Notes under the pieces: generated by a model
The model's input: the letters and a program-made list of their open reading frames with translations, nothing else
What the model was told of the DNA's origin: nothing
Database searches by the model: none
Part shown: positions 15,477 through 35,966 of the stretch, one piece after another
Layout of the letters: every line of letters begins with the position of its first letter
How positions within the stretch are numbered: position 1 is the stretch's first letter
Program-made: the position numbers and the translations under genes
NCBI GenBank assembly: GCA_015058145.1
Contig: SVCX01000003.1
Coordinates: 1 to 64,000 of the forward strand
Direction: 5' to 3'
Length of the DNA: 64,000 nucleotides
DNA from: Clostridiales bacterium
Lineage (GTDB): Bacteria; Bacillota; Clostridia; Peptostreptococcales; Anaerovoracaceae

Positions 15477-18400
15477 TTACTTTCTGATCTTATCTCTGTA
15501 GTTGAGATACTGGTCTTCCTGACTGCCCTTCCAGCGTACGCCTTCCTCGCCGAGTTCACCGAATTCGATGTCGTCCGGCAGGGTTGGCTGCATTGGATTC
15601 GCCTTAATCTGGGCGACTGCATCATACAGCTCAGAGCCGAGGAAGTATTTCTCAGGCTTGTTCGGATTCGGTTCTCCCTTAGCCTTTGCTTCAATACCGG
15701 CCTTGACCTTATCAGGTGTAGCAGGAATCTCGTAGATTCTGACGCCGACAGCGTTGTTGATCGCGTTGATGACTGCCATGTGGTCGGCTGACTGGAACGC
15801 CTCGGAAGCTCCGGAGGAACCGAACGGACCACGTGGATCTTCGCCGTCGGTGTGGATGTAGTTGAAGTCTGGATAGTCAGGAATGTCGTTGGCATAGAGG
15901 ATACCAGCCTTGACCATGTTCCAATCCTTTTCAACATCTTCGTAGTTCTCAGTGAGAGCGAAGCCGATTGCGTGTGACATACCGCCGTAGATCTGGCCTT
16001 CGACTGCCTGAATGTTACCAGGCTTACCGATCCACTCGACGCAGGTCATGCCCGTGCACTTGGTTTTACCAGTTGCAACTTCTACATCTACGGTTGCCAG
16101 GAACAGAGCATAGGTGTAGGTGTAAGTCGGGTTACCGGAACCATCGTTTGGATCCAAATCGTAGAAGTAGTTATACTCATCTACAGTAGCCCAGTCGCCA
16201 GGATATCTTGTAGGAAGTCCTTCTGCAACCATTTCGTCATATGTTCTGTATGTTCCGTCTTCCTTTCTCATTGCGTCTGCGATGTTCTTCGCTGCAACGA
16301 TGGAAGCTTTACCATTGGCGTAGTGTGATCTGGAACCAGCAGACTCACCAGTGTTCGGACAATACTTGGAGTCGTCCTGAACGAGCTTGATGTCATCCGG
16401 AGTGATGTTCGGGAAGTAAGGCTTCAGCGCTTCCAGCGTACAGATGAGTGAACCCTGGTCGCCGCCCTGGCCCTGATCCTGCCAAGTGTCGTACTTTCTG
16501 AATGTGCCGTCCGGCATCAGTTCGAGAGCAACGTGTGCTTCGTCGATGCCGCCCAGTCCTACGTTGTAGCCGCCCCATGCGACACCGACGCCCTTCTTGA
16601 CGTCTTCATGATCCTTGTTCCAAGCTTCGACTTCCGCCTTTTTCTCGTTATAGATAGGCCTCAGTTTATCCATCATCTCTTCCATTGGATAGTGGAGATA
16701 TGGAAGCTGGTTGATGTTTGTTTCTTCCGGCGTTCTCGCGATGTTGATGTATCTGAATTCGAATGGATCGATGCCGGCTTTTTCTGCCAGCATGTCGACG
16801 ATCGCTTCTGAACCGGTGTAAGCCTGTGGTGCGCCGTAGCCTCTGTAAGCAGTTGTCCAGAGATGGTTGGTAACAGCCGATCTGTTCATGCCGACTACAT
16901 TTGGAACGTAGTATGGATAGAACATGAAGCGGGAAGTCTTGGTCAGTTTGTCATCGGTAAATTCGCCGAAGCAACCGGCATCCAGACCGATGTCATATTC
17001 ACCGGCAACGAATCTGCCGTTTTCATCACAGGCAAGGCGTGCATTACAATATGAAGGTGAACGCTTACCCGTAACAGCCATGAACTGCTTGTAATCCATA
17101 GACAGTGAGCAAGGCATCTTCGTTAACATTGTAGCGTATGCGCAAAGTGTCCAGTTGTGCGCATTCATCGCCCATCCGAAGCTTCCGCCTGTCGGGTTCT
17201 CGATGAGACGGATGTCGTTTTCGGAATCGAGACCCAGCGCGTTGGCCATTTCGTCCTTATCCCAGTAGAGGGTCATGCACTTGCAGTGCACGCAGAGCTT
17301 GTTGTCTTCGTCGTAGTAAGTCTGAGCAACATCGCCCTCGATGGACATGTGCGGCTCTCTGGAGGAGTAGAAGGATCCTTCTACGGAGAACGCTGCATTC
17401 TCAATCAGTTCCGGAACATGCTCGTCATCGCCCTTCAGAACCGGCAGGTGGCAGTAGGTGTTCGGCGCATAGGTGTCCGGCATCCAGTCGTAGATCTGGC
17501 TGGCACCCGGAGCAACAGATTCCAGGAAGTTCATGTGCGCTTCCAGTTCCTCGATCTCTACCTTGACATACGGTACTGCTGCCTTTGCGTGATCTCTGGT
17601 GTCTGCCACGACCAACGCAACGACGTCACCGTACCATTTGATCTCGTCTTCCGCGAGAATGTGGTGATGCTCCTGCAGTTCTACTGTTCTTTCGGAGAAG
17701 CCGAACGCCATGAAATAGTTCTTGCAACCAATCTCTTTGACATCCTTGGCTGTGATGACCTTGACTACGCCAGGCATCTTCTCAGCTTCGCTGTAGTCGA
17801 TGCTTTTGATCTTGGCGTGGTGTGTGATTCTCGGCATCACCATTTCGACCTTCAGGGTCTCAGCCGGCATGTGCAGTTCAACGTCATCGCCGTAGTCGCA
17901 GACGCCGCATGCCTTCGGCAGAGCGTTCGGTCTTTCGAGCGGCTTGCCGTAGAAGTTACCGATATCCTTTGTCCAGTCATATCTCAATTCTTCAACAGTC
18001 TTTTCGCCTCTCAGGACCTGTGCAGCAGCCATGACGGCGTCAACAATCTGCTTGTAACCAGTACATCTGCAGACGTTTCTGTGCTTGGTGAACCAGTCTC
18101 TGACATCTTCTCTCGTAGGATTTGGATTTTCCTGCAGGAGCTGATAGGCAGATACAATGAATCCAGGTACGCAGTAGCCGCACTGTACGGCGCCGCATGC
18201 GACCCACATGGACTGAAGTGGATGAGGATAGTTGACGCTGCCGATACCCTCGATGGTGGTTACCTCGCTGTACTCTTCGACCTTGGCGATCTTTCTTGTG
18301 CAGGAGCGGATGACTTTGCCGTTCAAGATGACAGAGCAGGCTCCGCAGACGCCGTAGCCACAGCCGATCTTCGTGCCGGTCAGGCCGAGACGGCGCAGTA

Positions 18401-18485
18401 CGTCAGCAAGGGTGTCCTTCTCGGGATCGCAAATGAACATTCTGTCTGCACCATTAATGTGCAGAGTCATTTTCTTTAAATTCAT
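15477..18485 (-). CDS. Molybdopterin aldehyde oxidoreductase/xanthine dehydrogenase-family enzyme, second paralogue
   Basis: CGYGVCGACSV; CGYCVPGF; CRCTGY; FGSSGASEAF; colinear with the 10868 gene and starts MNLKKMTLHINGADRMFICDP. Confidence 0.9.
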   Translation of the reverse strand: MNLKKMTLHINGADRMFICDPEKDTLADVLRRLGLTGTKIGCGYGVCGACSVILNGKVIRSCTRKIAKVEEYSEVTTIEGIGSVNYPHPLQSMWVACGAVQCGYCVPGFIVSAYQLLQENPNPTREDVRDWFTKHRNVCRCTGYKQIVDAVMAAAQVLRGEKTVEELRYDWTKDIGNFYGKPLERPNALPKACGVCDYGDDVELHMPAETLKVEMVMPRITHHAKIKSIDYSEAEKMPGVVKVITAKDVKEIGCKNYFMAFGFSERTVELQEHHHILAEDEIKWYGDVVALVVADTRDHAKAAVPYVKVEIEELEAHMNFLESVAPGASQIYDWMPDTYAPNTYCHLPVLKGDDEHVPELIENAAFSVEGSFYSSREPHMSIEGDVAQTYYDEDNKLCVHCKCMTLYWDKDEMANALGLDSENDIRLIENPTGGSFGWAMNAHNWTLCAYATMLTKMPCSLSMDYKQFMAVTGKRSPSYCNARLACDENGRFVAGEYDIGLDAGCFGEFTDDKLTKTSRFMFYPYYVPNVVGMNRSAVTNHLWTTAYRGYGAPQAYTGSEAIVDMLAEKAGIDPFEFRYINIARTPEETNINQLPYLHYPMEEMMDKLRPIYNEKKAEVEAWNKDHEDVKKGVGVAWGGYNVGLGGIDEAHVALELMPDGTFRKYDTWQDQGQGGDQGSLICTLEALKPYFPNITPDDIKLVQDDSKYCPNTGESAGSRSHYANGKASIVAAKNIADAMRKEDGTYRTYDEMVAEGLPTRYPGDWATVDEYNYFYDLDPNDGSGNPTYTYTYALFLATVDVEVATGKTKCTGMTCVEWIGKPGNIQAVEGQIYGGMSHAIGFALTENYEDVEKDWNMVKAGILYANDIPDYPDFNYIHTDGEDPRGPFGSSGASEAFQSADHMAVINAINNAVGVRIYEIPATPDKVKAGIEAKAKGEPNPNKPEKYFLGSELYDAVAQIKANPMQPTLPDDIEFGELGEEGVRWKGSQEDQYLNYRDKIRK

Positions 18486-18702: not shown

Positions 18703-18811
18703 CTATCGAGACTGGTTGTGGATCTGTCTGCGCACTTTTTTATCAAAGACAAGCAAGCAATATGAATTTAAAGTTTAGACGTGTCTAAAGAATATTAAAT
18801 TCGTGTAACTT

Positions 18812-18873
18812 CAATAAAAAAGTGCGCAGGCAAATCAATCAAACCAGATATGGTATGAATGACTCCTTCGCAC
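18812..18873 (-). terminator. Terminator at the 3' side of leader element A
   Basis: Minus strand GTGCGAAGG ... CCTGCGCAC followed by TTTTTTATT. Confidence 0.7.
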
Positions 18874-18947
18874 AATGGCAGGCTGCCGGATCACTCCTGC
18901 AACCCTATCGCCCAAGCTGACAAACGGGTGCCGGCAAGGGTCGGAGT
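18862..18947 (-). ncRNA. Candidate structured leader RNA (element A), unassigned riboswitch-like
   Basis: ACTCCGACCC...GCAGGAGTGATCCGGCAGCCTGCCATTGTGCGAAGGAG; related to element B; promoter-like TTGACA-N18-TAAAAT just upstream on minus strand; followed by terminator. Confidence 0.6.
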
Positions 18948-18967
18948 GTATTCTTTTTCCTGCTCCA

Positions 18968-18997
18968 ATTTTAACTGTATGTAAGCGGGTTTGTCAA
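18968..18997 (-). promoter_or_regulatory. Sigma-70-type promoter for element A leader
   Basis: Minus strand TTGACA (18997-18992), 18-nt spacer, TAAAAT (18973-18968). Confidence 0.55.
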
Positions 18998-19066
18998 TAC
19001 GTATTGTCAGAACAACACGATACTGAAAAACCATTGTTTAAACGTCTTTTTACAGCAAATTTGTTG

Positions 19067-19095
19067 TTGAAGCAAAACGTCCAAAAATATATAAT
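19067..19095 (+). promoter_or_regulatory. Sigma-70-type promoter upstream of the Moco-type riboswitch
   Basis: TTGAAG, 17-nt spacer, TATAAT. Confidence 0.6.
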
Positions 19096-19120
19096 ATAGG
19101 CACAGGCAAGCAATTGAATA

Positions 19121-19225
19121 ACGCCTTTCGAGCTGGGACGCCTAAGGGTCCTTCGAGGATCTATGGCCAGCAGACGACAGGGTTTGGCGGGAAACCGCCT
19201 GGCCTCCCGTGTTTGGAAAGAAATG
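19121..19225 (+). ncRNA. Moco/Tuco-type riboswitch
   Basis: CTTTCGAGC...GGACGCCTAAGGGTCC...GGCCAGCAGACGACAGGGTTTGGCGGGAAACCGCCTGGCCTCCCGTGTTTGGAAAG; the CCTCCCGTnTnTGGAAAG block matches the E. coli moaA leader as I recall it. Confidence 0.8.
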
Positions 19226-19254
19226 GCTGAGTGACGTATTATTATTGTTCACTG

Positions 19255-19336: not shown

Positions 19337-20866
19337 ATGAGCAGCAATATGAAAAAATGGCTATCGCTTTTAACACCCCTTGCGGTAGCTTTTATTTTGT
19401 GTCTTGGCGCAATGGGGGTCTTCACCGAGAAGGCATTTGCAGATTCGGGAGATTTAACTGTGATTTGCCCTGTAGATGGAAATAACGTACAGGTTAACTT
19501 CTATTATGAAAAGAATGAGGGTGAACCGGTCGGACATCTTTATTATATGAACGGCGATACGAAGGTCGTCATTAAAAACACGCAGAATGCTGTGACCTAT
19601 TCAGCAATCAAAAACACTGCTTCTCCGAGTGATGAAACTGATGCAATTGGACCTGAAGTTGAGGCCTTGCTCAAGGCAACCGGCTTTGTGCCTGCGGAAA
19701 ACACCAAATACCTGGTGACTGTGAAAAGCAACGATGGAAAGAATTCGACCTTTACATGGGATGAATTGTTTAAGACGGAACGATATACTTTTCCAAATGC
19801 AAAGATGCCGAAAGATCCGGAGGAAGATGGATTTGCTGTAACGGAAGCCCAGAAGGAGGGTGCTGTGGCGGTTCCGGTAATCATTGACTTAGCCATATCA
19901 AAAGATAAGCCTGCCAATACATTCTGCTTCGGACAGGTTTCTCCTACCGAGAGAACCAGACCTGCCTTTGTTAAGAATGTTATTTCAACAAAGAATACTA
20001 CACCTAGTATCACAGTCGAAGCAGTAGAGAACTACGAGCAGATAAGTAATGAGTCTGATGCGGTTGTTAGTGTTCCTAACAACAGCACAATAGAAATCGG
20101 AACGGAGATACGTTTCGGAGGAGATGCGAAGACAAGTCCATATGAAACAGAGAACACGCCTCTGCATAATCTGTACTATACGACAGATGGTTCAGAGCCA
20201 ACGTTGGAATCAGGCTTGTATAACTGGTATTCTTATTATCAAGAAAGCGCGGAATTTTATTATAAGTACAACTCAATTGTCGCAGACAAATTAGGAACGC
20301 TGAAGATAAGAACAAAGGCTTACAGACATGGCTATCTGCCGAATGAAAAAACGTTCACCTATCATGTAGTGGCTGATTTTGCGAAAATCAAAGGGCAACT
20401 AACACTCGACAAAACAAAGGTTGTTGCCGGATCGAAACCGTCTGCTACGGTTAAAGCGGAGGGAAAGACGCTGAAGGCGAACACAGATTACACAGTTAAT
20501 TTTGGAAACTACAAGAAGGTTGGTACAGCAACAGTAGCAGTAACCGGTAAAGGAAACTATATAGGAAAACTGAGTAAGACTTATAAAGTCATCCCTGCAA
20601 AAGCAAAATTCAAATCTGTAAAGGCCGGCAAGAAAAAGGCGACCATTGTAATTGTAAGCCAGAAAGCATCCGGCGTCACAAAGTACCAGATTGCCTACAA
20701 ACTTAAAACTGCTAAGAAGTGGAAGACTACTACAACCACGTCCACTAAGAAGGTGATTAAAAAGCTCAAGAAAGGCAAGAAGTACAACTTTAAGGTCAGG
20801 GCTTACGGGAAAACCGGATACGGCGCGTACAGTGCTGTGAAGACAATCAAAATCAAGAAAAAGTAA
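19337..20866 (+). CDS. Exported protein with chitobiase C-terminal-like and fibronectin type III-like domains
   Basis: Signal peptide; LYYTTDGSEPTLESGLY; C-terminal Lys-rich FN3-like KYQIAYKLKTAKKWKT...YNFKVRAYGKTGYGAYS. Confidence 0.7.
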   Translation: MSSNMKKWLSLLTPLAVAFILCLGAMGVFTEKAFADSGDLTVICPVDGNNVQVNFYYEKNEGEPVGHLYYMNGDTKVVIKNTQNAVTYSAIKNTASPSDETDAIGPEVEALLKATGFVPAENTKYLVTVKSNDGKNSTFTWDELFKTERYTFPNAKMPKDPEEDGFAVTEAQKEGAVAVPVIIDLAISKDKPANTFCFGQVSPTERTRPAFVKNVISTKNTTPSITVEAVENYEQISNESDAVVSVPNNSTIEIGTEIRFGGDAKTSPYETENTPLHNLYYTTDGSEPTLESGLYNWYSYYQESAEFYYKYNSIVADKLGTLKIRTKAYRHGYLPNEKTFTYHVVADFAKIKGQLTLDKTKVVAGSKPSATVKAEGKTLKANTDYTVNFGNYKKVGTATVAVTGKGNYIGKLSKTYKVIPAKAKFKSVKAGKKKATIVIVSQKASGVTKYQIAYKLKTAKKWKTTTTTSTKKVIKKLKKGKKYNFKVRAYGKTGYGAYSAVKTIKIKKK

Positions 20867-20878
20867 TTAGAAGACTTA

Positions 20879-21913
20879 ATGAAGCAAAAGAACTACACAA
20901 GTTCATCAAAGAAACAAGGCCTGCTTAACACGGCCTTGTTTCTTATACTTTTGCTTCTTGTTTTGGCCTGCCTTTGCGTGGGCAAGTATTCGATCGCACC
21001 GGAAGAATGCATTAGGATCCTGTGGGGTAAACTCATCCATGCGCAGCCGTCCTGGGACGGCATGGATGAGAAGCTGCTGATAGGGATCCGGCTGCCGCGC
21101 ACGATGGCAACGGTCATCGTTGGAGCGGCGCTGGCGCTCTCCGGAGCGGTTTATCAGGGCATCTTCAAGAATCCTCTGGTGTCGCCGGATTTTCTCGGTG
21201 TTTCATCAGGAGCATGTGTGGGTGCAGCGATTGCGATTCTGCTGTCCCTGTCATCCGGTCTGATTCAGATTTTTGCATTCTTCGGCGGGATTCTGGCGGT
21301 CTCATTGACCGTGCTGATTCCGAAGGCGATGCGGAGTGAGTCGAATCTCATGCTGGTATTAGCGGGCATCATCATCGGCGGCGCGATGACCTCGGTGCTC
21401 GGTTTCATCAAATATATCGCCGATCCGGAGACGCAGCTCGCTGCCATTACATATTGGCAGTTGGGCAGTTTTGCTTATGTGGATAATCACGCTCTCTTAA
21501 GCGTGCTTCCGCTCAGCATCGCCGCCGCAGTCATTCTGCTGGCTATGTCCTGGTGGATCAATGTCCTGTCTCTTGGTGAGAAAGAGGCGCAGATGCTAGG
21601 CGCGAATGTTTCGGTATTACGAGGCGTATGCATTATTTGTTCAACGGTGCTGACGGCAGGGGCCGTCTGCATTTCAGGAACGATTGGATGGGTAGGTCTG
21701 GTTATACCGCACTTCGGAAGAATGATTATCGGTTCCGACAACAGGCACCTGCTGCCGGGATGCTGTTTCATCGGCGGAATCTTCATGCTGCTGGTGGATA
21801 CGGTTACCAGAGTAATCGGTCCGGCAGAGATGCCGGTCAGCATTCTGACGGGTCTGCTTGGAGCGCCGTTCTTCGCATGGCTGCTGTACCGGCAGCGGAT
21901 GAATATGAGGTGA
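20879..21913 (+). CDS. BtuC/FecCD-family ABC transporter permease
   Basis: Multi-TM; RLPRTMATVIVGAALALSGAVYQGIFKNPLVSPDFLGVSSGA; WVGLVIPHFGRMIIGSDNR. Confidence 0.9.
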   Translation: MKQKNYTSSSKKQGLLNTALFLILLLLVLACLCVGKYSIAPEECIRILWGKLIHAQPSWDGMDEKLLIGIRLPRTMATVIVGAALALSGAVYQGIFKNPLVSPDFLGVSSGACVGAAIAILLSLSSGLIQIFAFFGGILAVSLTVLIPKAMRSESNLMLVLAGIIIGGAMTSVLGFIKYIADPETQLAAITYWQLGSFAYVDNHALLSVLPLSIAAAVILLAMSWWINVLSLGEKEAQMLGANVSVLRGVCIICSTVLTAGAVCISGTIGWVGLVIPHFGRMIIGSDNRHLLPGCCFIGGIFMLLVDTVTRVIGPAEMPVSILTGLLGAPFFAWLLYRQRMNMR

Positions 21914-21917
21914 GAAT

Positions 21918-22715
21918 ATGGAAACGATTTACGATGTAAACAATCTGACATTCTCATATCGACAGGGTGACCGCAAGGTGCTTGACGGTGTTTCGCTGCA
22001 GTTGAACAGGGGCGATATTCTCTGCGTTCTCGGGCCGAACGGAGCGGGGAAGACGACGCTTCTCAATTGCATGGCTGGATTATTGAAACCTGATGCTGGA
22101 GAAATCATTCTGTGCGGCAAAGATCTCAAAAACATGAAAGCGAAGGAAATCGCAAGTCTCGCCGGTTATGTGCCGCAGATGCACACGCCGGCCTTCGACT
22201 ACACGGTGATGGATTTTGTGCTAATGGGCCGCGCCCCGAAGACGGGAACCTTCAGCAGACCGAAAAAAGAAGACGAAAGCCTTTGCATGGATATTCTCGG
22301 AAGCATGGGAATCGGCGGGCTCGCGTCAAAGTCTTATCTGGAAATCAGCGGAGGCGAGCGACAGCAAGTGCTTATTGCCCGCGCTATCGCGCAGCAGCCG
22401 GAGGTAATTCTGTTTGATGAACCTACGGCCCATCTGGATTACGGCAATCAGCATCGGGTGCTGAACCGGATCAAACAGATGGCAGGCGAAGGGTTTTCTG
22501 TAATCATCACGACCCACAACCCGGATCATGCGCTTCTGCTCGGAGACAAGGCGGCAATTGTCAGCAAAGACGGGCACATCAGACAGGGTAGTGTCGAGGA
22601 TATTATCGCCGCGGAGAGACTGCGGGAAGTCTATGATATCGATCTGCATCTTGAGTATGTGGAGGAGATTAATAGAGTGGCGTGTTTCGCGCCGGAATTG
22701 GACGATAGGAAATGA
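21918..22715 (+). CDS. ABC transporter ATPase, BtuD/FepC/MolC-like
   Basis: Walker A GPNGAGKTT; ISGGERQQVLIARAI; DEPTAHLD. Confidence 0.9.
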   Translation: METIYDVNNLTFSYRQGDRKVLDGVSLQLNRGDILCVLGPNGAGKTTLLNCMAGLLKPDAGEIILCGKDLKNMKAKEIASLAGYVPQMHTPAFDYTVMDFVLMGRAPKTGTFSRPKKEDESLCMDILGSMGIGGLASKSYLEISGGERQQVLIARAIAQQPEVILFDEPTAHLDYGNQHRVLNRIKQMAGEGFSVIITTHNPDHALLLGDKAAIVSKDGHIRQGSVEDIIAAERLREVYDIDLHLEYVEEINRVACFAPELDDRK

Positions 22716-23773
22716 GACGCAAAAGCATCACAAACAGAATAGCGTTAATGCTGGTGACTATCGTTGTGTTGTTTGCCATGACCGGCTGCGGCGGGGGGAA
22801 TCCTTCGGGCAACACGGAACCCGGTAAAATCCTGTCGCAGACAGAGGACGAAATCACCATTGTGGATCAGGCCGGACGGGAAGTTACCGTGCCGAAGAAG
22901 ATTGAAAGCATCGCGCTGTCTTACCGTGTTGCAATTCGTTTCCTGCTTAATCTCGATCAGGGGGACAAGATCAAAGGCATCGGCAAATCCGAACCGTTTC
23001 TGGAGGAACTGCAGCCGTCGCTGGCAGACTGCGTAAATGTGGGACAGGGAGTCGCTGATATCGAAGCGGTGGCGGAGCTCGATCCGGATGTATTCTTCCA
23101 CAAGGCAAGCGACACGGAGACACTTGACGCGCTGGACAAGATCGGGGTCCCTGCAGTGGGAATCGAAATTGAGACGCCGGAAGATATGATGACAGCGCTG
23201 GATCTGATGGGCAAAGTCTGCGGCGCGGAGGAAAAAGCTCAGACGCTGATCAACTACTACAATGAACAACTTGCAGAAATCGAGGAACTCACATCGGAGA
23301 TCAGTGAAAAAGATAAAAAGACGGCCATCGTCATGGGAACATCCATCGGCAAAGTGGCGGACGGATCCATGCTTCAGGGCGAGATGCTGAAGCGGGCAGG
23401 CGCAATCAACTGTGCGGATGGAATGCAGGCGACAGAACTTTGGCCGACTGCCGGAGCGGAGCAGATTTTCGAGTGGAATCCGGATTATATCTTCATCACC
23501 GGAAGCGAGAGCGCGGTATATGACGCGGAGGATATTCTGCAGGATAAGACGTGGTCGGAGATTACAGCGGTCAAAAGCGGAGATGTCTATGTGATGCCGG
23601 CGGAGAAAGATTCCTGGGAATTTCCCGGCTTGGTCAGCATTCTCGGAATCGACTATATGATACACACGATGTATCCGGAATTATTGAGCGACGAAGAGCT
23701 TGAAGATAAGGTAAACGAACTCTATGAGCTGTCTTACGGCAGGACTTTTGAAAGAGATGAACTCGGCTATTAA
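22712..23773 (+). CDS. Cluster-A substrate-binding lipoprotein (BtuF/FhuD/MolA fold)
   Basis: Lipobox AMTGCGGG; TVPKKIESIA; NPDYIFITG; ABC partner genes immediately upstream. Confidence 0.85.
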   Translation: MRRKSITNRIALMLVTIVVLFAMTGCGGGNPSGNTEPGKILSQTEDEITIVDQAGREVTVPKKIESIALSYRVAIRFLLNLDQGDKIKGIGKSEPFLEELQPSLADCVNVGQGVADIEAVAELDPDVFFHKASDTETLDALDKIGVPAVGIEIETPEDMMTALDLMGKVCGAEEKAQTLINYYNEQLAEIEELTSEISEKDKKTAIVMGTSIGKVADGSMLQGEMLKRAGAINCADGMQATELWPTAGAEQIFEWNPDYIFITGSESAVYDAEDILQDKTWSEITAVKSGDVYVMPAEKDSWEFPGLVSILGIDYMIHTMYPELLSDEELEDKVNELYELSYGRTFERDELGY

Positions 23774-25145
23774 AAACAATGGCAAGAGAATACTGGCTGT
23801 ATGCTGCGTGGTACTGATTGTCGTGCTGCAGGTTGTATTTGCTGTACCTTCAGATGCAGCAGGAAAAGCGGGCGAAGAACTGGAGATAAGAGTTCAGTAC
23901 GAAGGCGAGCGCGGCGGAAAAATCAGGACGTGGGCAGTGCTTTCTGATAGCGATTTGGAAAACCTCGGTGCGCATGAGCAGATTTATACGAACATCACAC
24001 GAGTAGGAACGCTGATGCGGTCAGCTGTTTTATGTATAGAACTTGAAACAATTATCGATGCCGCAGGGATTGATCCGGGTTCTGTCAAGTCGTTTACTTT
24101 TAGAACAGACGACGGATATACAATGACCTTTTATGGTGACGACTATTTAATGTCACCGGGTTGGTATTATCCTAATTTGGCAGCACATTCCTACAGAGTC
24201 GATAATGCACGTGATGGCGCGCTGCAGATGGAAGCGGGGGCACTTGATGATGGTGTTCGCAACGCATATGCAGTTATAGCCTTAAAATCATTCAGCACGA
24301 AGTATAACTCTGACGAAGTATCCTTCGACGACATGACAAAAGAGAACGCCTACCGGTTTTTCCGTGGCCAAACGGATCTTTCATATCTGCGGTATGAAGA
24401 TGAGGAAGGAAATGAAATGTTTATGCCGTCTAAAATGCAGGATATAACAGCAGCCAGCACCATCAAGTACATCTATGGCATTGATCTGGTCCTTAAAGGT
24501 GCGCCGCCTCTTGATGGAATCAGCCTGAATGTTATCGGCGATTCAAAGAAGGTGGGAAGCCAGGTGCAGATTCAGGTCACGTTCGAGGGCGACACGTTTG
24601 GTCTTTTCAGCAGTAGTGATGTGACTTGGTCCAGCAGCGATGAATCCGTCGCAACGGTAGACAAGAATGGCGTTGTGACCATCTTAAAAGAAGGGGAGGT
24701 CACGATCACAGCAGAGGCAGGCGGTAAAACAGCCTCCGTGGTTCTTGGTTCTCCGACCAGCGAAAAGGATAATCCAGAGAACAAAGACACCACAGATAAA
24801 GTAAAGGCAACAAAGTCCACAAACACGAAAACAACCAAAGAGAAAGCAGAGAAAAAGCAGAACAACAACGTAAACCAAAAAACAGAACAGAAAGACAGTA
24901 AGAAAAAAGTGATTACAGCCAGAGAAATCAGCATCGGCAAGGAGATCGTACCGGAGCCGGAAGAGGCAGCTGCTGCTGTCAGCGTGAAAACCGATACACA
25001 GGCCCTCGAAGCGGTGGAGGAATACAATCCGAAGGTGGTCGGCGGTTCAGCAGCCGCGGCGGTGCTGGCCTGCAGCGGCGGAGCGGTCTTCCGGGTGCGC
25101 AGGTTCCGGGCAGACATGGGTACGAATATCAAGAGCAAGCATTAA
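23757..25145 (+). CDS. Exported membrane-anchored protein with BIG2 domain
   Basis: Signal peptide; VTWSSSDESVATVDKNGVVTILKEGEVTITAEAGGKTASV; C-terminal TM plus basic tail; overlaps upstream SBP gene. Confidence 0.7.
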   Translation: MNSAIKNNGKRILAVCCVVLIVVLQVVFAVPSDAAGKAGEELEIRVQYEGERGGKIRTWAVLSDSDLENLGAHEQIYTNITRVGTLMRSAVLCIELETIIDAAGIDPGSVKSFTFRTDDGYTMTFYGDDYLMSPGWYYPNLAAHSYRVDNARDGALQMEAGALDDGVRNAYAVIALKSFSTKYNSDEVSFDDMTKENAYRFFRGQTDLSYLRYEDEEGNEMFMPSKMQDITAASTIKYIYGIDLVLKGAPPLDGISLNVIGDSKKVGSQVQIQVTFEGDTFGLFSSSDVTWSSSDESVATVDKNGVVTILKEGEVTITAEAGGKTASVVLGSPTSEKDNPENKDTTDKVKATKSTNTKTTKEKAEKKQNNNVNQKTEQKDSKKKVITAREISIGKEIVPEPEEAAAAVSVKTDTQALEAVEEYNPKVVGGSAAAAVLACSGGAVFRVRRFRADMGTNIKSKH

Positions 25146-28030: not shown

Positions 28031-28059
28031 TTGCCAATAAAGTGATATTACTTTATAAT
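28031..28059 (+). promoter_or_regulatory. Sigma-70-type promoter for element B leader
   Basis: TTGCCA, 17-nt spacer, TATAAT. Confidence 0.7.
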
Positions 28060-28071
28060 ATAACCATAAAG

Positions 28072-28159
28072 ACTCCGACTCTTTCTCGACACGCGCGGCG
28101 TGCCGGTCAGAGCGCCAGGTATCGGGAGTGATTCCGGTGCCCGCCATTGTGCAAAGGAG
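28072..28159 (+). ncRNA. Candidate structured leader RNA (element B), unassigned riboswitch-like
   Basis: ACTCCGACTC...TCGGGAGTGATTCCGGTGCCCGCCATTGTGCAAAGGAG; related to element A; begins shortly after predicted TSS. Confidence 0.65.
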
Positions 28160-28190
28160 ACCGCTTGGTTTGCCTTTGCTTTTTTATTTT
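28151..28190 (+). terminator. Intrinsic terminator at the 3' side of element B
   Basis: GCAAAGG ... CCTTTGC followed by TTTTTTATTTT. Confidence 0.8.
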
Positions 28191-28242: not shown

Positions 28243-28638
28243 ATGGCAACAAAGCGTTTGAAGTTCAACAAGGCACTTTGCATCGGGTGCCAGCTGTGTT
28301 CTCAGGTCTGTTCTGCTTACAAGGAGGGAGAGTACAATCCTTCCAAGGCAAGACTGGCTATAGAGACATACTATGATGACGGATCGCTGAAGTACAAGGA
28401 TGACTTCTGCATTCTGTGCGGCATGTGCATGAAAGCATGCCCGTTTGACGCCATCGATATGGACAAAGGGTGGATTACAGTAGATCCTGACAAATGCAAA
28501 GGCTGCGGCCTCTGCGCGAAGAAGTGTCCGAAGAAGGTCGTCAGGATTCGCGATAAAATGGCGTATATCTGCGACACCTGCGAGGGCGATCCAAACTGTG
28601 TCAAGGCTTGTCCGCACGGCGCCCTGACGTTTGAATAG
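28243..28638 (+). CDS. Multi-[4Fe-4S] ferredoxin-like electron-transfer subunit (AorA-like)
   Basis: CIGCQLCSQVC; CILCGMCMKACP; CKGCGLCAKKCP; CDTCEGDPNCVKACP. Confidence 0.9.
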   Translation: MATKRLKFNKALCIGCQLCSQVCSAYKEGEYNPSKARLAIETYYDDGSLKYKDDFCILCGMCMKACPFDAIDMDKGWITVDPDKCKGCGLCAKKCPKKVVRIRDKMAYICDTCEGDPNCVKACPHGALTFE

Positions 28639-28653: not shown

Positions 28654-30477
28654 ATGAAAGCGAGAATATTAGAAGAAAAATATAGTGCGCAGGCAGCTGA
28701 CCCGAATCAGAATGTCATGCAGGCGTATCAAAACAAAGTTCTGAGAATCAATCTTAATGAAGAAGATGCCACAATCGAACCTCTCCGCATGGATTTCGCA
28801 GAAAAGTATGTCGGCTCCAAGGGGCTGGCAATCCGCTACATGTATGAGGATATGAAACCGGGCATCGATCCATTGGGACCGGAAAACAATCTGTACTTTA
28901 CAACTGGACCGATGACGGCCACACCGATTCCATGCTCTGGCAAACTGTCCGTAGCAGCGAAGTCGCCGGCGACGGGAACTATGAATGACTGCTCCATCGG
29001 CGGCCACATCGGCATCCGCCTGAAGTTCGCAGGATACGACATGGCAGTATTTGAAGGCCAGAGTGAGAAGCCGGTTTACGTTGTGATTGAAAATGACGAA
29101 ATCACGTTCCACGATGCATCCGAACTGTGGGGAATGACCTCCCACGCAGCTGAGAAGAAACTTATAGATGAATATGGAACAGAGTACAGCTGCCTTTCCA
29201 TCGGACCTGCTGGTGAAAACCTGAACTTCATCTCCTGCATCAACTGCGACTACTACAGACAGGCAGGAAGAGGCGGTATCGGTGCTGTCATGGGAAGCAA
29301 GAAGGTCAAGGCAATCCTCGTGAAGGGAACGCTGGGCGTCAAGCTCCCGAACATCAAGGAAGCGACAGACAGGATTCTGGAGATCATGCATGAGAACGCT
29401 CTCTCCGAAGACAATGAATATGTATTCGATGAAGGAACCTATGCATTCCTGGAAGCTTGTAACGACGGTGGTATTCTTCCGGCTCACAACTTCAGTGCGG
29501 CGACTGACGTGAAATGGGATCAGTACAACGGCGCAGTCATGAAGAAATATCGTCTGGGCAAGCGTGGATGCGGAAGCTGCGCACTGGGCTGCGGCAACTT
29601 CATGCAGGTCGGCGATGCGATTGTTGAAGGTCCAGAGTACGAAACGACAGCGGCTTCCGGTCCGCAGTGCGACATCGCTAGCATTGAGCATAACGTAAGA
29701 TACAATCAGCTGGTCGATGATCTGGGTATGGATTCCATCAGTACCGGCGTAACAATTGCCTGGGCCATGGAAATGGCGGAGAAGGGCATCCATGATTTCG
29801 GCGTACACTTTGGAAATGAAGAAGAGATGCTGAAACTCATCGAAGACATGGCGTATCGCAGAGGAGCCGGCGCAGAGCTGGCGGACGGCGTTAAGGTCGC
29901 GTCAGAGAAGTGGGGCGGCACAGACTTCGCAATGCACTCCAAGGGACTGGAGTTCCCGCAGTATGAACCGCGCGGAAGCTTCGGCATGGCTGCATCCTAT
30001 GCAGTATCCGACAGAGGCGCCTGCCACATGAGGTCCTACACGGCAAACGAGGAAGTATTTGAGGCATCCTGTCCACCGTATACACATGAAGGCAAGGGCG
30101 AGGTGCTCTATAATCTGGGCGAGTGGAACGCAATCAAGTTCTCCTGCTGTCTTTGCGACTTGTGGGGAACGGCTGACTACGCGGTTATGTCCGAGCTGCT
30201 GACGCTGATCACAGGCAAAGAGTGGACCGAAGAGGACATGAGCACAGTCGGACGCAGGGTCCTCAACATCGGACGTGCGTTCAACCAGCGTGAAGGATTC
30301 ACCAGAGAGCATGACGTTGTTCCGCAGAGACTGTTCAAGGATAAGCTCAAGGGCGGTCCGGCAGACGGTCAGGTCATGACAGAGGAAGGATTCCAGGATA
30401 TGCTGGATCAGTATTTCGAAATCATGGGCTGGGACAAGAACGGTTGCCTGCCTCAGGAACTGATCGATACGCTGTAA
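28654..30477 (+). CDS. aor: Aldehyde:ferredoxin oxidoreductase (AOR family, tungsten)
   Basis: KGLAIRYMYE; YFTTGPMTATPIPCSGKLSVAAKSPATGTMNDCSIGGHIG; CGSCALGCGNFM; CCLCDLWG. Confidence 0.9.
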   Translation: MKARILEEKYSAQAADPNQNVMQAYQNKVLRINLNEEDATIEPLRMDFAEKYVGSKGLAIRYMYEDMKPGIDPLGPENNLYFTTGPMTATPIPCSGKLSVAAKSPATGTMNDCSIGGHIGIRLKFAGYDMAVFEGQSEKPVYVVIENDEITFHDASELWGMTSHAAEKKLIDEYGTEYSCLSIGPAGENLNFISCINCDYYRQAGRGGIGAVMGSKKVKAILVKGTLGVKLPNIKEATDRILEIMHENALSEDNEYVFDEGTYAFLEACNDGGILPAHNFSAATDVKWDQYNGAVMKKYRLGKRGCGSCALGCGNFMQVGDAIVEGPEYETTAASGPQCDIASIEHNVRYNQLVDDLGMDSISTGVTIAWAMEMAEKGIHDFGVHFGNEEEMLKLIEDMAYRRGAGAELADGVKVASEKWGGTDFAMHSKGLEFPQYEPRGSFGMAASYAVSDRGACHMRSYTANEEVFEASCPPYTHEGKGEVLYNLGEWNAIKFSCCLCDLWGTADYAVMSELLTLITGKEWTEEDMSTVGRRVLNIGRAFNQREGFTREHDVVPQRLFKDKLKGGPADGQVMTEEGFQDMLDQYFEIMGWDKNGCLPQELIDTL

Positions 30478-30793: not shown

Positions 30794-30961
30794 ATGTCAG
30801 CGAAAGATAAGAACGAATACGAAGTAACCATGACTTTTGACGGGGAAGAAGTGGGAATGATGCCTTTCGTAGAAGGCATGGTTCGCGATGTGGTTTTAGG
30901 CCTTGCAGAAAACCTCAAGGGTTACGAGGAAGGCATGGAAATCGTCATCAGAATCAAGTAG
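30794..30961 (+). CDS. Small 55-aa protein absent from the supplied ORF track
   Basis: RBS aggaggttgag; MSAKDKNEYEVTMTFDGEEVGMMPFVEGMVRDVVLGLAENLKGYEEGMEIVIRIK*. Confidence 0.7.
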   Translation: MSAKDKNEYEVTMTFDGEEVGMMPFVEGMVRDVVLGLAENLKGYEEGMEIVIRIK

Positions 30962-30974
30962 GCTGAAGACTACC

Positions 30975-31490
30975 ATGAAAGTAATCAATATACAGGGCAG
31001 AAAAAAGACCGGCAAGACGACGACGGCCGTGAACATAATATCGGAGCTGTGCCGCAGAGGATATTCCGTTGGTTCCATTAAAGGAATTCACATCGAAGGG
31101 TTCACGATGGACCAGGGTGGAGACACTAGAAAACACAAGGCGGCAGGCGCAGATCCTGTCGCAGCCCGCAGTCATGATGAGACGAACATCATGTTCTCGG
31201 GCAGTATGGACCTTCGGGATATTCTGAAGCATTTCAGCAATGACTGGGTCATCATAGAGAGCCATGTCGACTTGAAGTGTCCGAATATTATCACTGGCAA
31301 AACAGCATCTTATGACGGACAGGGAAAAGATGAAAGCCTTGAAGAACAGGTGAACCCCTTGACTATCTGCTGCAGCGGCGTCATTGCGAACGAACTCACA
31401 GAGTTCCAGGGAATACCGGTAATCAACTCACAGACAGAGATTGCACGTCTGGTTGATTTGATAGAAGAAAAAACGGACGATTATGAGTGA
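30975..31490 (+). CDS. mobB: Molybdopterin-guanine dinucleotide biosynthesis MobB-like GTPase
   Basis: MKVINIQGRKKTGKTTTAVNIISELCRRGYSVGSIKGIHIEGF; P-loop. Confidence 0.85.
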   Translation: MKVINIQGRKKTGKTTTAVNIISELCRRGYSVGSIKGIHIEGFTMDQGGDTRKHKAAGADPVAARSHDETNIMFSGSMDLRDILKHFSNDWVIIESHVDLKCPNIITGKTASYDGQGKDESLEEQVNPLTICCSGVIANELTEFQGIPVINSQTEIARLVDLIEEKTDDYE

Positions 31491-31517
31491 AACCGCAGGA
31501 TCTGAAGAGGTGATGGA

Positions 31518-32426
31518 ATGAAAAAGATAGTAATAGCCGGTGCGGGAAACATGGGGCTGTCCGCGGCAAGGCTTTTGGATCCGAACAGAGTGGAGTTTCT
31601 TGGCTTCGCAGACAACGATCCGGGCAAGTGGACGAAGGAAGACGGTAGTTACCCGGAGCAGGATGATGCGGCAGGTAAACCGCCCGTGTTTTCCATCCAG
31701 ACCGCAGTCGATTTGGCGCCCGATGAGTTCATCATCAGCGCAATCGATAAAGAACGTTCCCGCGCTATTGCGGAGCAGCTTAAGGTTTGCCGGTTCTACG
31801 GCAACATCATGAGTCTGCATGAACTATATGAGGACTTTGATATTCGCAGCCGCTGCACGAAAGAACTGGCGGACAGAGTTTCGGGTGCCGCCGGATTGCC
31901 GGAGATTCCCGGCGCCGCGGCGGAACTGGGCGTCTACAAAGGAGATATAGCCTGGCAAATCAATTACTTCCTACCAGAGAAACAGTTTTATCTCTTTGAC
32001 ACCTTTGAGGGATTTGCCGAGTCAGATATCAAGATTGAAAAGGCGTATGCTCTTTCGAGCGCAGAGGTGGGAGAATTCTCCGACACTTCTGTCGGCGAGG
32101 TGCTCCAGCGCCTCCCGCATCCTGAGAAATGCCATATCAGGAAGGGGCATTTCCCGGAGACAGCGGCAGGTCTTGCGCATGCAGAATTCGCATTTGTGAG
32201 CATCGACCCGGATCTTTATGAACCAGCGCTGGCGGGATTGGAGTTCTTTTATCCAAGACTGAACGAAGGCGGCGTCCTTATTGTGCACGACTACAACAAT
32301 ACACAGTACAAAGGCGTCCGTCAGGCGGTGAAGGAATACGACCAGAAGCTGATTGCCATGGGTGAAAAGCCACTCAAACTGGTGCCCCTTGGGGACTTGC
32401 ACGGAAGCTGCGTGATTATAAAATAA
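31518..32426 (+). CDS. Rossmann plus TylF/MycF-like methyltransferase protein
   Basis: N-terminal VIAGAGNMGLSAARLL; AELGVYKGDIAWQINYFLPEKQFYLFDTFEGF; VHDYNNTQYKGVRQAV. Confidence 0.7.
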   Translation: MKKIVIAGAGNMGLSAARLLDPNRVEFLGFADNDPGKWTKEDGSYPEQDDAAGKPPVFSIQTAVDLAPDEFIISAIDKERSRAIAEQLKVCRFYGNIMSLHELYEDFDIRSRCTKELADRVSGAAGLPEIPGAAAELGVYKGDIAWQINYFLPEKQFYLFDTFEGFAESDIKIEKAYALSSAEVGEFSDTSVGEVLQRLPHPEKCHIRKGHFPETAAGLAHAEFAFVSIDPDLYEPALAGLEFFYPRLNEGGVLIVHDYNNTQYKGVRQAVKEYDQKLIAMGEKPLKLVPLGDLHGSCVIIK

Positions 32427-32994
32427 ATTGATTTAAGAAAAATCGAAGACGGGATTCAAATTCATCGAACTCCGCAACAACAGTCAGTTTGTTGTGGAGT
32501 TCTTTATTAAGTGTCAAAATAGACGGATCCATGTGCTGCGCGTTACTCAGTGATTTGACAACGCCTATACAAGGCACATCCGAATCAAGCAGTTTGTACA
32601 GTTCGCTGCGGAAAGCGCTGCTGGCCAGCTCATGCCCTCCAATTTCATCAAGAAGAACAATCTTTGCATGCCCTTCCTTTACTGCGGCGAAGGCTTCTTT
32701 GATCCGTTTGATCCCAATCGTCTCAAACACGTTCATGTCTGTTCGGGAACCGTTTGGAGTGAAGTATTTAAAGACATTGTCCATGTCAGCAGGGTTTGCG
32801 GTAATAGAAAGATCAGCCGCTGCCGGCGCCAGTCGGAAACCGAGGAGGTTACTGTCAGAATCCGTGATCCGCTGGCTTGTGAAGCCTGCAACACCGCTGA
32901 GGTTCTGGCCGAACACTTCGCGCAGGACTTTTCGTATCAATGTTGACTTGCCTGTCTGGATGGGACCTTCAATAAATAAAGTATTCATGGACAT
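32416..32994 (-). CDS. P-loop NTPase, THEP1-like nucleoside triphosphatase
   Basis: FIEGPIQTGKSTLIRKVL; IVLLDEIGGHELASSAF. Confidence 0.7.
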   Translation of the reverse strand: MSMNTLFIEGPIQTGKSTLIRKVLREVFGQNLSGVAGFTSQRITDSDSNLLGFRLAPAAADLSITANPADMDNVFKYFTPNGSRTDMNVFETIGIKRIKEAFAAVKEGHAKIVLLDEIGGHELASSAFRSELYKLLDSDVPCIGVVKSLSNAQHMDPSILTLNKELHNKLTVVAEFDEFESRLRFFLNQFIL

Positions 32995-33095
32995 ATTGTA
33001 ATCCTGAGAAGCGTGCTTTGGCAACTGAAGACGCAGCAGGGTATCTTCCGCAAGGACTGAAGATATGGTATAGTTTCACAAAGAGAGGTGGAGAT

Positions 33096-33974
33096 ATGGC
33101 AGAAGGCGGTAACGCGATGACAACAATCAACTGGAACGAAATATGGCGCAGCACGGAAGACTCAATTGAGCGTTCAAACAATCTTGACTTTTGGAATGCC
33201 TTTGCGCCGAGATTCCGAAATAAAAACGGAATGGAAGATCCGTATATCGAGAAATTCTATGAATATATGGAGGCGCAGCCGGGAGACACACTTTTCGATA
33301 TGGGGTGCGGTTCGGGTACATTGGCAATTCCTTACGCGCAGAAGGGACATGAAGTCTTCGCGGCAGACTTTTCTCCCGAAATGCTGAAATATATGATGCA
33401 GGGGGCAGAGGAAGCTGGTGTGGCTGACAGGATCCATCCCATTGAACTCAATTGGAATGAGGACTGGAGTTTGCGTGATTTGCCGCAATGCGATATCGCG
33501 TTTTCTTCCCGATCCTTTATTTCGCGCGATTTGACCAGCTCGCTGGAAAAATTAGAATCCGTTGCGAAACGCAGAGTCTGCATCGGCGCCTGGGATATCC
33601 CGGCGGCTGGATACGACAGACACCTTGCAAAGGCAATCGGTTACGAACGTCCTGGGATGGGTACGCATTATCTGATTATGGGGGAACTCATGGACAGAGA
33701 TGTTTTCCCGGAAATGAAATATATATATACACCATTTCGACAGGCGAAATATGCAAGTCGGCAGGAAGCGGAGGAGCAGTTGCGTCAGGCCTTTTCGCAT
33801 ATGACCGTGGAACAGGAAAAAATGTTCTGCAGGTATCTTGAAGAACATCTCATCTATCATCCGGAAGCAGCCGTGTTCCGTGGCAGGGACCTTGATGGAT
33901 TCTGGCAGTTCGATCACAACGACAACAGCTCCATGGCGTTTATAAGCTGGGATAAAAAGAGTCCTTTCGAGTAG
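33096..33974 (+). CDS. Class I SAM-dependent methyltransferase
   Basis: LFDMGCGSGTLAIPYAQKGHEVFAADFSPEML; RBS gaggtggag. Confidence 0.8.
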   Translation: MAEGGNAMTTINWNEIWRSTEDSIERSNNLDFWNAFAPRFRNKNGMEDPYIEKFYEYMEAQPGDTLFDMGCGSGTLAIPYAQKGHEVFAADFSPEMLKYMMQGAEEAGVADRIHPIELNWNEDWSLRDLPQCDIAFSSRSFISRDLTSSLEKLESVAKRRVCIGAWDIPAAGYDRHLAKAIGYERPGMGTHYLIMGELMDRDVFPEMKYIYTPFRQAKYASRQEAEEQLRQAFSHMTVEQEKMFCRYLEEHLIYHPEAAVFRGRDLDGFWQFDHNDNSSMAFISWDKKSPFE

Positions 33975-33992
33975 TCCGATCCACGCCAATCA

Positions 33993-34012
33993 AATGTTGT
34001 CATGCCAACATT
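33993..34012. promoter_or_regulatory. Palindromic operator 1 overlapping the -35 of the Crp/Fnr gene
   Basis: AATGTTGTCATGCCAACATT; TTGTCA-N18-TATAAT (34021-34026). Confidence 0.7.
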
Positions 34013-34055
34013 TTTTGCTGTATAATTGTGCTACCATGAATGCGGAGGAGCACAT

Positions 34056-34718
34056 ATGCAGTATCTGGAAAGCATAATAGAGAGTGGACTGTTCAGCGAA
34101 CTTAAGAAATCAGATTACATGGACGCTTTCGAACAGCTCAAGGTTTCCGGCAGGAATTATCAGCCGGGGGAAACCATTTTTTTCGAAGGAGATCTCATCG
34201 ATAAATTCTGTATCGTCAGGGAAGGCAGCGTAAGGAGTGAGAAAACTTATCTGAACGGAGAGGTCCATATTGTCGATATGTTTGATGAAGGATCTGTATT
34301 CGGTCTTGCGGTTGCTGCATCCAGAAGCCGTGTCACAGCCATAGACTACATCAGCAACGAGGTGTCCACGGTTGTTTTCGTTTCCATGCATTCCATTCAG
34401 AAGAACAGATTTTCCAAAGAACTGCAGAAAGCGCTGACCTTCATGCTTGCTGACAGCAACATCAAGATGAGAAATAAGATAGAGATTCTGGCGGAAAAGG
34501 GGCTCAGAGACAGAGTGATGATGTATCTGCACGTCCTGCAGGCAAAATCCGGAACGGATACTGTTACCGTCAGAATGAGCAGAGAGCAGTTAGCCCAGTT
34601 CCTGTGCGTCAACAGGTCCGCGCTGTCAAATGAACTCAGCAAGATGAAAAAAGAGGGCATAATTGATTTCAAAGGACCGACGTTCAAAATCTTGAAAAAG
34701 AAATTAATGTTGTCATAA
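34056..34718 (+). CDS. Crp/Fnr-family transcriptional regulator
   Basis: cNMP-like N-domain; HTH SREQLAQFLCVNRSALSNELSKMKKEGII; RBS gcggaggag. Confidence 0.9.
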   Translation: MQYLESIIESGLFSELKKSDYMDAFEQLKVSGRNYQPGETIFFEGDLIDKFCIVREGSVRSEKTYLNGEVHIVDMFDEGSVFGLAVAASRSRVTAIDYISNEVSTVVFVSMHSIQKNRFSKELQKALTFMLADSNIKMRNKIEILAEKGLRDRVMMYLHVLQAKSGTDTVTVRMSREQLAQFLCVNRSALSNELSKMKKEGIIDFKGPTFKILKKKLMLS

Positions 34719-34724
34719 CAACAT
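34707..34724. promoter_or_regulatory. Palindromic operator 2
   Basis: ATGTTGT-CATA-ACAACAT perfect 7-bp arms; overlaps regulator stop codon. Confidence 0.75.
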
Positions 34725-34803
34725 ACAAATCTTCGATAAGGGAGTACTATATACACATAGTTGAGAAACGGTTTGATTATTAACTTGGTTTGACTTGAAA
34801 CAG

Positions 34804-34833
34804 CAGCGGGCAGCAACCCGCTGTTGTTTTTTT
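34804..34833 (+). terminator. Intrinsic terminator between the Crp/Fnr gene and moeA-like gene
   Basis: CAGCGGG-CAGCAA-CCCGCTG then TTGTTTTTTT. Confidence 0.8.
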
Positions 34834-34853
34834 AATGGAATAATTACAGTCAG

Positions 34854-34871
34854 ATGTTGTTAAAACAACAT
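34854..34871. promoter_or_regulatory. Palindromic operator 3 upstream of the moeA-like operon
   Basis: ATGTTGT-TAAA-ACAACAT; TATAAT at 34891-34896. Confidence 0.75.
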
Positions 34872-34916
34872 GGAGCGACGGCATATACTATATAATCAAA
34901 ACTGCATAGACAACAC

Positions 34917-35963
34917 ATGAGAAAGCAAGAGGAAATAGGAATGAAAGAAATCAGGACTGTCGATGCAGTGGGACACGTTTTGTGCCACGATATCACACAG
35001 ATTATCAAAGACGTCAGCAAGGGACCGGTATTCAGAAAGGGGCACATCATAAGGGAAGAGGACATTCCGGTGCTGCTCAGCGTGGGCAAGGATCATATAT
35101 ACGTTTGGGAAAACGACGCATCCATGATGCATGAGGACGATGCGGCGGAAGTGTTGTGCGCCATCAGCAAAGGTGAAAACATCAGCCGGGGAGAGGCCAA
35201 GGAAGGTAAAATCGAGCTCCGGGCGGAGTGCGATGGGCTGCTCAAAATCGATGAGGAAAAACTGAAGATGGTGAACTCCTTCGGTCAGATGATGATTGCG
35301 ACGCGCCATGGGAACTTCCCAGTGCACAGGGGCGACAAGCTTGCCGGGACGCGCATCATTCCTCTCGTTATCGAAAAGGAAAAGATGGAGGCAGTAAAAG
35401 CAAAAGCAGGAGACACGCCGATTCTCAATGTTCTCCCTTTCCAGCATAAAAAAGTCGGCATCGTGACAACAGGAAACGAGGTTTTCCACGGCAGAATCAA
35501 AGATACTTTCACGCCGGTCGTCATGGAGAAAGTAAATGAATTCGGCGCTGGAATCGTCGGTCATAAATACAGCGATGATGAGAACGAACATATAGAAGCG
35601 GCTATCCGAGAACTGCTTGAAGCAGGCGCGGATATGATTCTCTGCACAGGCGGCATGAGTGTCGATCCTGATGACAAGACGCCGCTTGCCATCAGAAATG
35701 TCTGCGGCAGCGTGGTGACTTACGGCGCGCCGGTTCTTCCGGGAGCCATGTTCCTGCTTGCTTACTATGGTGAGAAGCAGATTCCGGTCATGGGACTTCC
35801 GGGCTGCGTCATGTACGCCAGGAGGACCATATTCGACTTGGTGCTTCCGAGAATCATGGTAGGCGAAGTTCTTACCAAGGAAGATTTCGATAGACTGGGT
35901 CAGGGCGGTCTCTGCCTTGACTGCGAAGTATGCACATTCCCGAACTGCGGGTTCGGTAAGTAG
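34917..35963 (+). CDS. MoeA-like molybdopterin-binding protein with Cys-rich C-terminus
   Basis: VGIVTTGNEVFHGRIKD; CTGGMSVDPDDKTP; C-terminus CLDCEVCTFPNCGFGK; likely start at 34941. Confidence 0.8.
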   Translation: MRKQEEIGMKEIRTVDAVGHVLCHDITQIIKDVSKGPVFRKGHIIREEDIPVLLSVGKDHIYVWENDASMMHEDDAAEVLCAISKGENISRGEAKEGKIELRAECDGLLKIDEEKLKMVNSFGQMMIATRHGNFPVHRGDKLAGTRIIPLVIEKEKMEAVKAKAGDTPILNVLPFQHKKVGIVTTGNEVFHGRIKDTFTPVVMEKVNEFGAGIVGHKYSDDENEHIEAAIRELLEAGADMILCTGGMSVDPDDKTPLAIRNVCGSVVTYGAPVLPGAMFLLAYYGEKQIPVMGLPGCVMYARRTIFDLVLPRIMVGEVLTKEDFDRLGQGGLCLDCEVCTFPNCGFGK

Positions 35964-35966
35964 AAG

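Follow-up and report, generated by a model that had tools for sequence, protein, structure and literature searches.

Diverged P3-less RNAs of the Moco/Tuco type with predicted ON-switch anatomy upstream of aldehyde oxidoreductase genes in a Clostridiales bacterium

Introduction

The Moco/Tuco riboswitch is counted as a riboswitch class on genetic evidence. Its P3-containing form (RF01055) is built from a P1 stem (CUCC/GGAG), a J1/2 junction reading GA, P2, P4 with a GNRA loop, P5 and an AAA run before the 3' strand of P1, and it lies upstream of Mo/W genes. P3-less relatives ('Tuco' or 'Wco'; Regulski et al., 2008) were, in the main text of that study, proposed rather than directly shown to sense the tungsten cofactor Tuco (PMC2408646), and on that basis Moco and Wco are both given as ligands in reviews (PMC9971707, PMC10043782, PMC9481103). 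The same main text notes four Moco RNAs with a GCAA tetraloop and no receptor, for which it gives no sub-class, no link to aldehyde:ferredoxin oxidoreductase (AFOR) and no ON polarity (Regulski et al., 2008; PMC2408646). As far as they are described there, these four RNAs very likely belong to the variant analyzed here, hereafter V, and are probably its first examples; our literature search found no description of an AFOR-linked, ON-type Moco/Tuco form.

The V RNAs share all the elements listed above with the P3-containing RNAs and differ from them by the absence of P3, a GYGA/GYAA loop, the absence in most cases of the 11-nt receptor, a G-C first pair in P5 and an ON-type expression platform. 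With the published P3-less RNAs they have in common the missing P3, in many cases a CAUUGUG P5 loop, and tungsten genes. The GAAA-type RNAs that we sampled differ in their wiring: they mostly precede genes for TupA-like transporters, MoeA-like and other proteins and have separate, OFF-type terminators, whereas V RNAs precede AFOR and have terminators built from P1.

Results

The window, a 64,000-nt stretch of a Clostridiales contig, contains two such elements, A and B. Element B, on the plus strand, follows a sigma-70-like promoter recognized from its sequence (28031..28059; TTGCCA at 28031-28036, N17, TATAAT at 28054-28059), and its 88-nt leader runs from ACTCCGA at 28072 to GGAG at 28159; the promoter, leader and terminator proposed in the initial annotation are thus all present. 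The aptamer (28072..28159), recognized by covariance models and by covariation over homologues, opens with the P1 5' strand CUCC (28073..28076), which pairs with 28156-28159 and is followed by the conserved GA of J1/2. The P2 arm (28079..28112; base CUCU 28079-28082 / AGAG 28109-28112) lacks the CCUAAG/UAUGG 11-nt receptor that most Moco RNAs carry. P4 is the hairpin GGUAUCGGGA-GUGA-UUCCGGUGCC (28118..28141, tetraloop at 28128-28131), and P5, GC-CAUUGU-GC (28143..28152), starts with a G-C pair where most GAAA-type Moco RNAs have C-G or U-A. An intrinsic terminator (28151..28185) pairs GCAAAGG (28151-28157) with CCUUUGC (28173-28179) and ends in U6 (28180-28185). Downstream on the same strand lie a 4Fe-4S ferredoxin gene (28243..28638) and then the gene of AFOR (28654..30477; Pfam AFOR_N/AFOR_C), a tungsten enzyme family. 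Farther 3', positions 30903-36929 hold cofactor genes (MobB-like, MoCF_biosynth-domain and MoaA-like radical SAM proteins), and a Crp-type regulator gene lies among them at 34026-34718.

The sister element that had been reported on the minus strand is also found: the aptamer of element A spans 18947-18863 (18863..18947, minus strand, by probe match and covariance models), and its 3' end matches a 19-nt probe of the shared sequence, which at up to 3 mismatches hits exactly two sites in the window, A and B (0.05 expected by chance). Over the whole assembly, a 16-nt probe found zero sites with fewer than 3 mismatches beyond these two. The P4 hairpin of element A reads GGUUGCaGGA-GUGA-UCCgGCAGCC, and its terminator (18816..18873, minus strand) has a 5' arm GUGCGAAGG starting at 18873, a 3' arm CCUGCGCAC ending at 18822, and U6 at 18821-18816. 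The gene under it (15477..18485, minus strand) encodes a molybdopterin-dependent aldehyde oxidoreductase of the xanthine-oxidase family, whose best NCBIfam match, NF045668, scores 1075.7 bits, slightly below the cut-off of 1100. A 28-nt inverted repeat adjoins element A (18721-18748 and 18809-18836; 86% complementary, 60 nt between the arms); in its inner part, TGCGCACTTTTTTAT / ATAAAAAAGTGCGCA, the terminator 3' arm and its U-tract recur in inverted orientation, and this exact arrangement was found in 1 of the 30 other genomes of the genus that were searched.

Diverging from element A is a canonical Moco RNA (19114..19239, plus strand; RF01055, 60.6 bits) with a GAAA loop and no P3, the sole Rfam 15 RNA above cut-off in the window. 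The two share one intergenic region (18863-19239) and are about 170 nt apart. The anatomy of the canonical RNA is of the OFF type (anti-terminator duplex -10.1, terminator -12.5 kcal/mol); going by these models, element A should act as an ON switch and its neighbor as an OFF switch in the same intergenic region. Divergent pairs of a V and a canonical Moco RNA also occur in four other loci. The operon under the canonical RNA (19337-25145) encodes a large fn3-domain protein, a BtuC/FecC-type ABC transporter with ATPase and binding protein, and a Big_2-domain protein; it may serve molybdate or tungstate uptake in the manner of MolBCA systems.

An alignment of 27 homologues gave a corrected structure, consisting of P1 (CUCC/GGAG), P2, the P4 hairpin with its GNRA loop and a two-pair P5, with P3 absent. 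Over this alignment 93.5% of the cells are paired, and double-sided changes number 114, against a mean of 27 in shuffles and no more than 36 in versions with displaced partners; such changes affect 17 of the 26 pairs, a level reached by 0 of 500 shuffles. The CTCCGA...AAGGAG ends, likened in the initial annotation to the Moco closing stem, include P1 and the adjoining GA, which Moco RNA also has. The helices drawn there needed correction. The proposed pairing CGGG/CCCG (B) versus CAGG/CCTG (A) finds no support, with 65.7% of the cells paired versus 65.1% in shuffles, the true helix being the P4 hairpin, and CTCT/AGAG (B) versus CCCT/AGGG (A) is right for B, where it forms the base of P2, and wrong for A, where CCC pairs with the GGG of GGGC and AGGG belongs to the next hairpin. 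P2 and P4 of the V RNAs are separated by about 6 nt (ACGNYAGGG) with no P3 stem between them, and the GA of J1/2 and the A-A-G-G run before and in the P1 3' strand hardly vary, if at all, in either V or GAAA types.

Searched against all 4227 Rfam families, the Moco families included, as had been suggested, neither A nor B gave a relevant match, even at E<=10; with no reportable score, both fall short of the RF01055 gathering cut-off of 36 bits. A cobalamin-like core (CCGGUG-CCCGCCAUUGUG), a resemblance noticed by eye, was rejected on the same search, which returned nothing from the cobalamin families at E<=10. As also suggested, we aligned A and B and derived a two-sequence covariance model from them; of 150 genomes in the host family, 21 (the host's own included) proved to hold relatives, with strong covariation, and one more genome was matched only through a canonical Moco RNA. 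RF01055 aligns with these relatives from end to end, with 24-43 bits in a first set and many scores close to the cut-off. Most of the V copies tested score below the cut-off; 2 V elements pass it in one set of 20 loci, and 8 do so in 20 loci of a related family (37.8-49.7 bits). GAAA-type Moco RNAs of the host family score 45-91 bits against the same model. Intermediates exist: one (L041) joins GAAA and the 11-nt receptor to the CAUUGUG P5 loop, and others combine a C-G P5 with a GUAA or GCAA loop and no receptor. That A and B are diverged P3-less members of the Moco/Tuco superfamily, sharing its fold by common descent, is well supported: the topology, the junction nucleotides, the sub- and supra-threshold RF01055 matches of the relatives and the intermediates all place them there. 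Assigning them to RF01055 as curated is nevertheless wrong by that family's own cut-off.

How widespread is this variant? We searched the host's family, order and phylum and scanned 85,488 species genomes for a pattern, which gave, among the matches listed, 233 distinct elements. Of these, 98 carry a GCGA, GUGA, GCAA or GUAA loop and define V, with nearly all others carrying GAAA; the sample is not random, because the model favors V and the pattern scan required a G-C P5, and neither model nor pattern selected on downstream gene or terminator. V elements are thus recognized by a GYGA/GYAA loop in place of GAAA, by a receptor that is mostly missing (in 88/98, allowing 1 mismatch) and by a flipped P5 pair, G-C in 93/98. 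A and B both have GUGA, a GNRA loop, and neither the GAAA loop nor the receptor. The P5 flip was rejected as the sole marker: G-C also occurs outside Bacillota with GAAA and the receptor before other genes (Ignavibacteria, Caldiserica, Chloroflexota), which makes the tetraloop class the better one. V elements are found in many families of the host phylum (f110, f33, f133, f64, f84 and f60, for example) and in contigs of Anaerolineae and Caldiserica; for this distribution we did not rely on probably mis-binned records, such as one labelled Lokiarchaeota. In viral contigs, a strict pattern had no exact match. In two V-like elements the P5 loop is reduced to CUUU or CUUUU (GCCUUUGC) and AFOR is still downstream. 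At another locus (L253:6306-6546), a V element scoring 93 bits has some 60 nt behind it a second, weak Moco-type match (27.9 bits), which in turn precedes a homologue of the window's gene at 19337; the two possibly form a tandem ON-then-OFF arrangement.

The genes downstream differ between the two types. With aptamers clustered at 80% identity, AFOR or its ferredoxin lies behind 33/40 clusters of V RNAs, compared with 6/91 of GAAA types (P=4e-18; 233 sampled elements); many of the genomes are metagenome-assembled, and the clustering reduces shared ancestry without removing it. In the family sample, AFOR_C is encoded within 1.3 kb downstream on the same strand for 27 of 29 V elements, the two exceptions being element A and its counterpart in another genome (G128), both before a Mo-hydroxylase-type aldehyde oxidoreductase. 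Within this sample, the second target is confined to the host genus and its close relatives. AFOR itself is present in all 21 V-bearing genomes of the host family, versus 42/150 overall (P=2e-14). The initial annotation had two different Mo/W enzyme types under control of the elements: both are indeed downstream in this genome, and AFOR emerges from the wider sample as the main target. An association with tungsten metabolism, through AFOR, is accordingly found for B and most V relatives, not for element A. Behind GAAA types, genes for a tungstate-binding protein resembling TupA form the largest group (its best NCBIfam match is TupA, at 248 bits short of the strict cut-off of that model); other transporter-like and MoeA-like proteins come next. 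In five host-family loci, the RNA in front of a Mo-hydroxylase-type aldehyde oxidoreductase is a GAAA-type Moco RNA with a separate terminator, a wiring that looks opposite to that of element A.

Adenine (pbuE) and ZTP switches are ON-type: a ligand-stabilized helix competes with an overlapping intrinsic terminator. The V RNAs resemble them in this platform logic, the aptamers being unrelated. In element B the terminator 5' arm, GCAAAGG, is itself the P5-J5/1-P1 3' strand of the aptamer, and GUGCGAAGG has the same double role in A, so that the terminator and P1-closed states are mutually exclusive in both and the terminator is incompatible with the helix that a ligand would stabilize, an ON polarity that the initial annotation overlooked. 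Computed energies favor the terminator by 10.9 kcal/mol in B (-44.9 vs -34.0 with P1 closed) and by 10.4 kcal/mol in A (-51.9 vs -41.5); with differences of this size, switching would have to be kinetic. Counting any terminator that competes with P1, a test whose calls depend on thresholds, 24 of 30 V clusters with a terminator use the P1 3' strand for it, versus 20 of 81 GAAA clusters (P=2e-7). By the criteria used, about 10 of 40 V clusters have no terminator; they may act otherwise, for example at translation. Terminator pairing is maintained at variable positions: at position -7, A faces U in 46/47 cases and G faces C (10) or U (2) in 12/12, and at position -10, U-A, C-G and A-U are all seen. 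Position -7 is A in 134/135 GAAA types. The 5' arms of the separate terminators of GAAA types complement the P1 3' strand (mean -8.7 vs -7.2 kcal/mol in swapped controls, P=7e-5), an excess expected of OFF switches.

Discussion

We consider it probable that A and B are riboswitches of the Moco/Tuco superfamily, of a P3-less variant, acting as transcriptional ON switches, with a metal-pterin cofactor as the most likely ligand. Homology, the covariation-supported structure, terminator anatomy and the AFOR association were computed here; the identity of the ligand, regulation itself and its direction in the cell are what we infer. In this proposal, the P2-P4 tertiary contact would have been remodelled. 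In the absence of ligand, the P5-J5/1-P1 3' strand (GCAAAGGAG in B, GUGCGAAGGAG in A) would pair with the downstream CCUUUGC (B) or CCUGCGCAC (A) to form the terminator, and the enzyme operon would be off. Ligand binding would close P1, which would take back the 3' strand, block the terminator and let transcription proceed into the ferredoxin-AFOR genes (B) or the gene of the Mo-type aldehyde oxidoreductase (A). As ligand we favor the metal-pterin cofactor that the downstream enzyme uses, most probably that of tungsten; synthesis of apoenzyme would then be limited to cells that have cofactor for it. The link of P3-less V RNAs to AFOR is in independent agreement with the published tungsten-cofactor proposal. 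Element A is a reason for caution: its place before an enzyme of a molybdenum family misfits a purely tungsten ligand, and its ligand may be common to Mo and W enzymes, or that enzyme may depart from its family.

Within this explanation, and compatible with it, is the question of whether V differs from the GAAA types in its ligand at all. V could be the same Moco/Tuco aptamer with the same ligand, an ON-wired lineage set apart by nothing but its scaffold contact and expression platform, a reading on which we are evenly divided. The GA of J1/2, the AGGG...CCU base of P4, the CAUUGUG P5 loop and the AAA-GGAG end are common to V and P3-less GAAA types, and the G-C P5 found with GAAA and receptor before other genes outside Bacillota means that P5 alone is no mark of specificity. 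Against this, the V-AFOR link holds across families and phyla more strongly than an arbitrary choice of platform needs, although ON wiring reserved for cofactor consumers could by itself yield it. More tentatively, and with rather less confidence, V might form a distinct specificity class, its aptamer retuned to AFOR's bis-pyranopterin tungsten cofactor, or to some other late intermediate, and switching tungsten enzymes ON, beside GAAA types that switch tungstate/molybdate uptake and cofactor synthesis OFF. One cofactor pool would then be read with opposite signs by two sister aptamers in the same cells.

The remaining alternatives are improbable. A and B could be OFF switches in which the ligand favors termination, as proposed for GAAA-type Moco RNAs and in line with the repression described for the known E. 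coli Moco RNA (PMC2408646); this is doubtful, as their terminator 5' arm is the P1 3' strand, which is unavailable to the terminator while P1 is closed. Less probable still is an unrelated new class, sensing for instance an aldehyde, a purine or a pterin precursor and Moco-like at its closing stem only. The missing Rfam matches, together with a P2 receptor region, tetraloop and P5 pair that depart from the Moco consensus, speak for it, but close relatives match RF01055 over the full length, some above the gathering score, the P1-GA-P2-P4(GNRA)-P5-AAA-P1 plan is that of Moco RNA, graded intermediates link V to the GAAA types, and the genes downstream encode Mo/W enzymes. We therefore reject it on the matches of the relatives and the intermediate sequences, and of the two possibilities raised in the initial annotation, the same evidence leaves the strongly diverged Moco-like variant rather than a second RNA class. 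Least probable of all is a ligand-free attenuator, conserved only as a terminator and transcript-stabilizing leader, which would suit the default terminator fold of A and B but not the many conserved letters in the junctions and P5, outside the terminator stem, nor the covariation of P2 and P4, which have no part in termination.

Taken as Moco/Tuco-type ON switches, the V RNAs bear on how, or whether, one RNA fold separates tungsten from molybdenum. They provide natural matched pairs of sister aptamers with opposite wiring, of which the pair in the window has one member before a Mo/W-enzyme gene and the other before a transporter-like operon, and their sequence divergence explains why standard annotation overlooks such RNAs. 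The prediction is that AFOR expression in many anaerobes (Clostridia, Anaerolineae, Caldiserica) would be switched on by its cofactor, which is of relevance to tungsten-dependent aldehyde and alcohol production.
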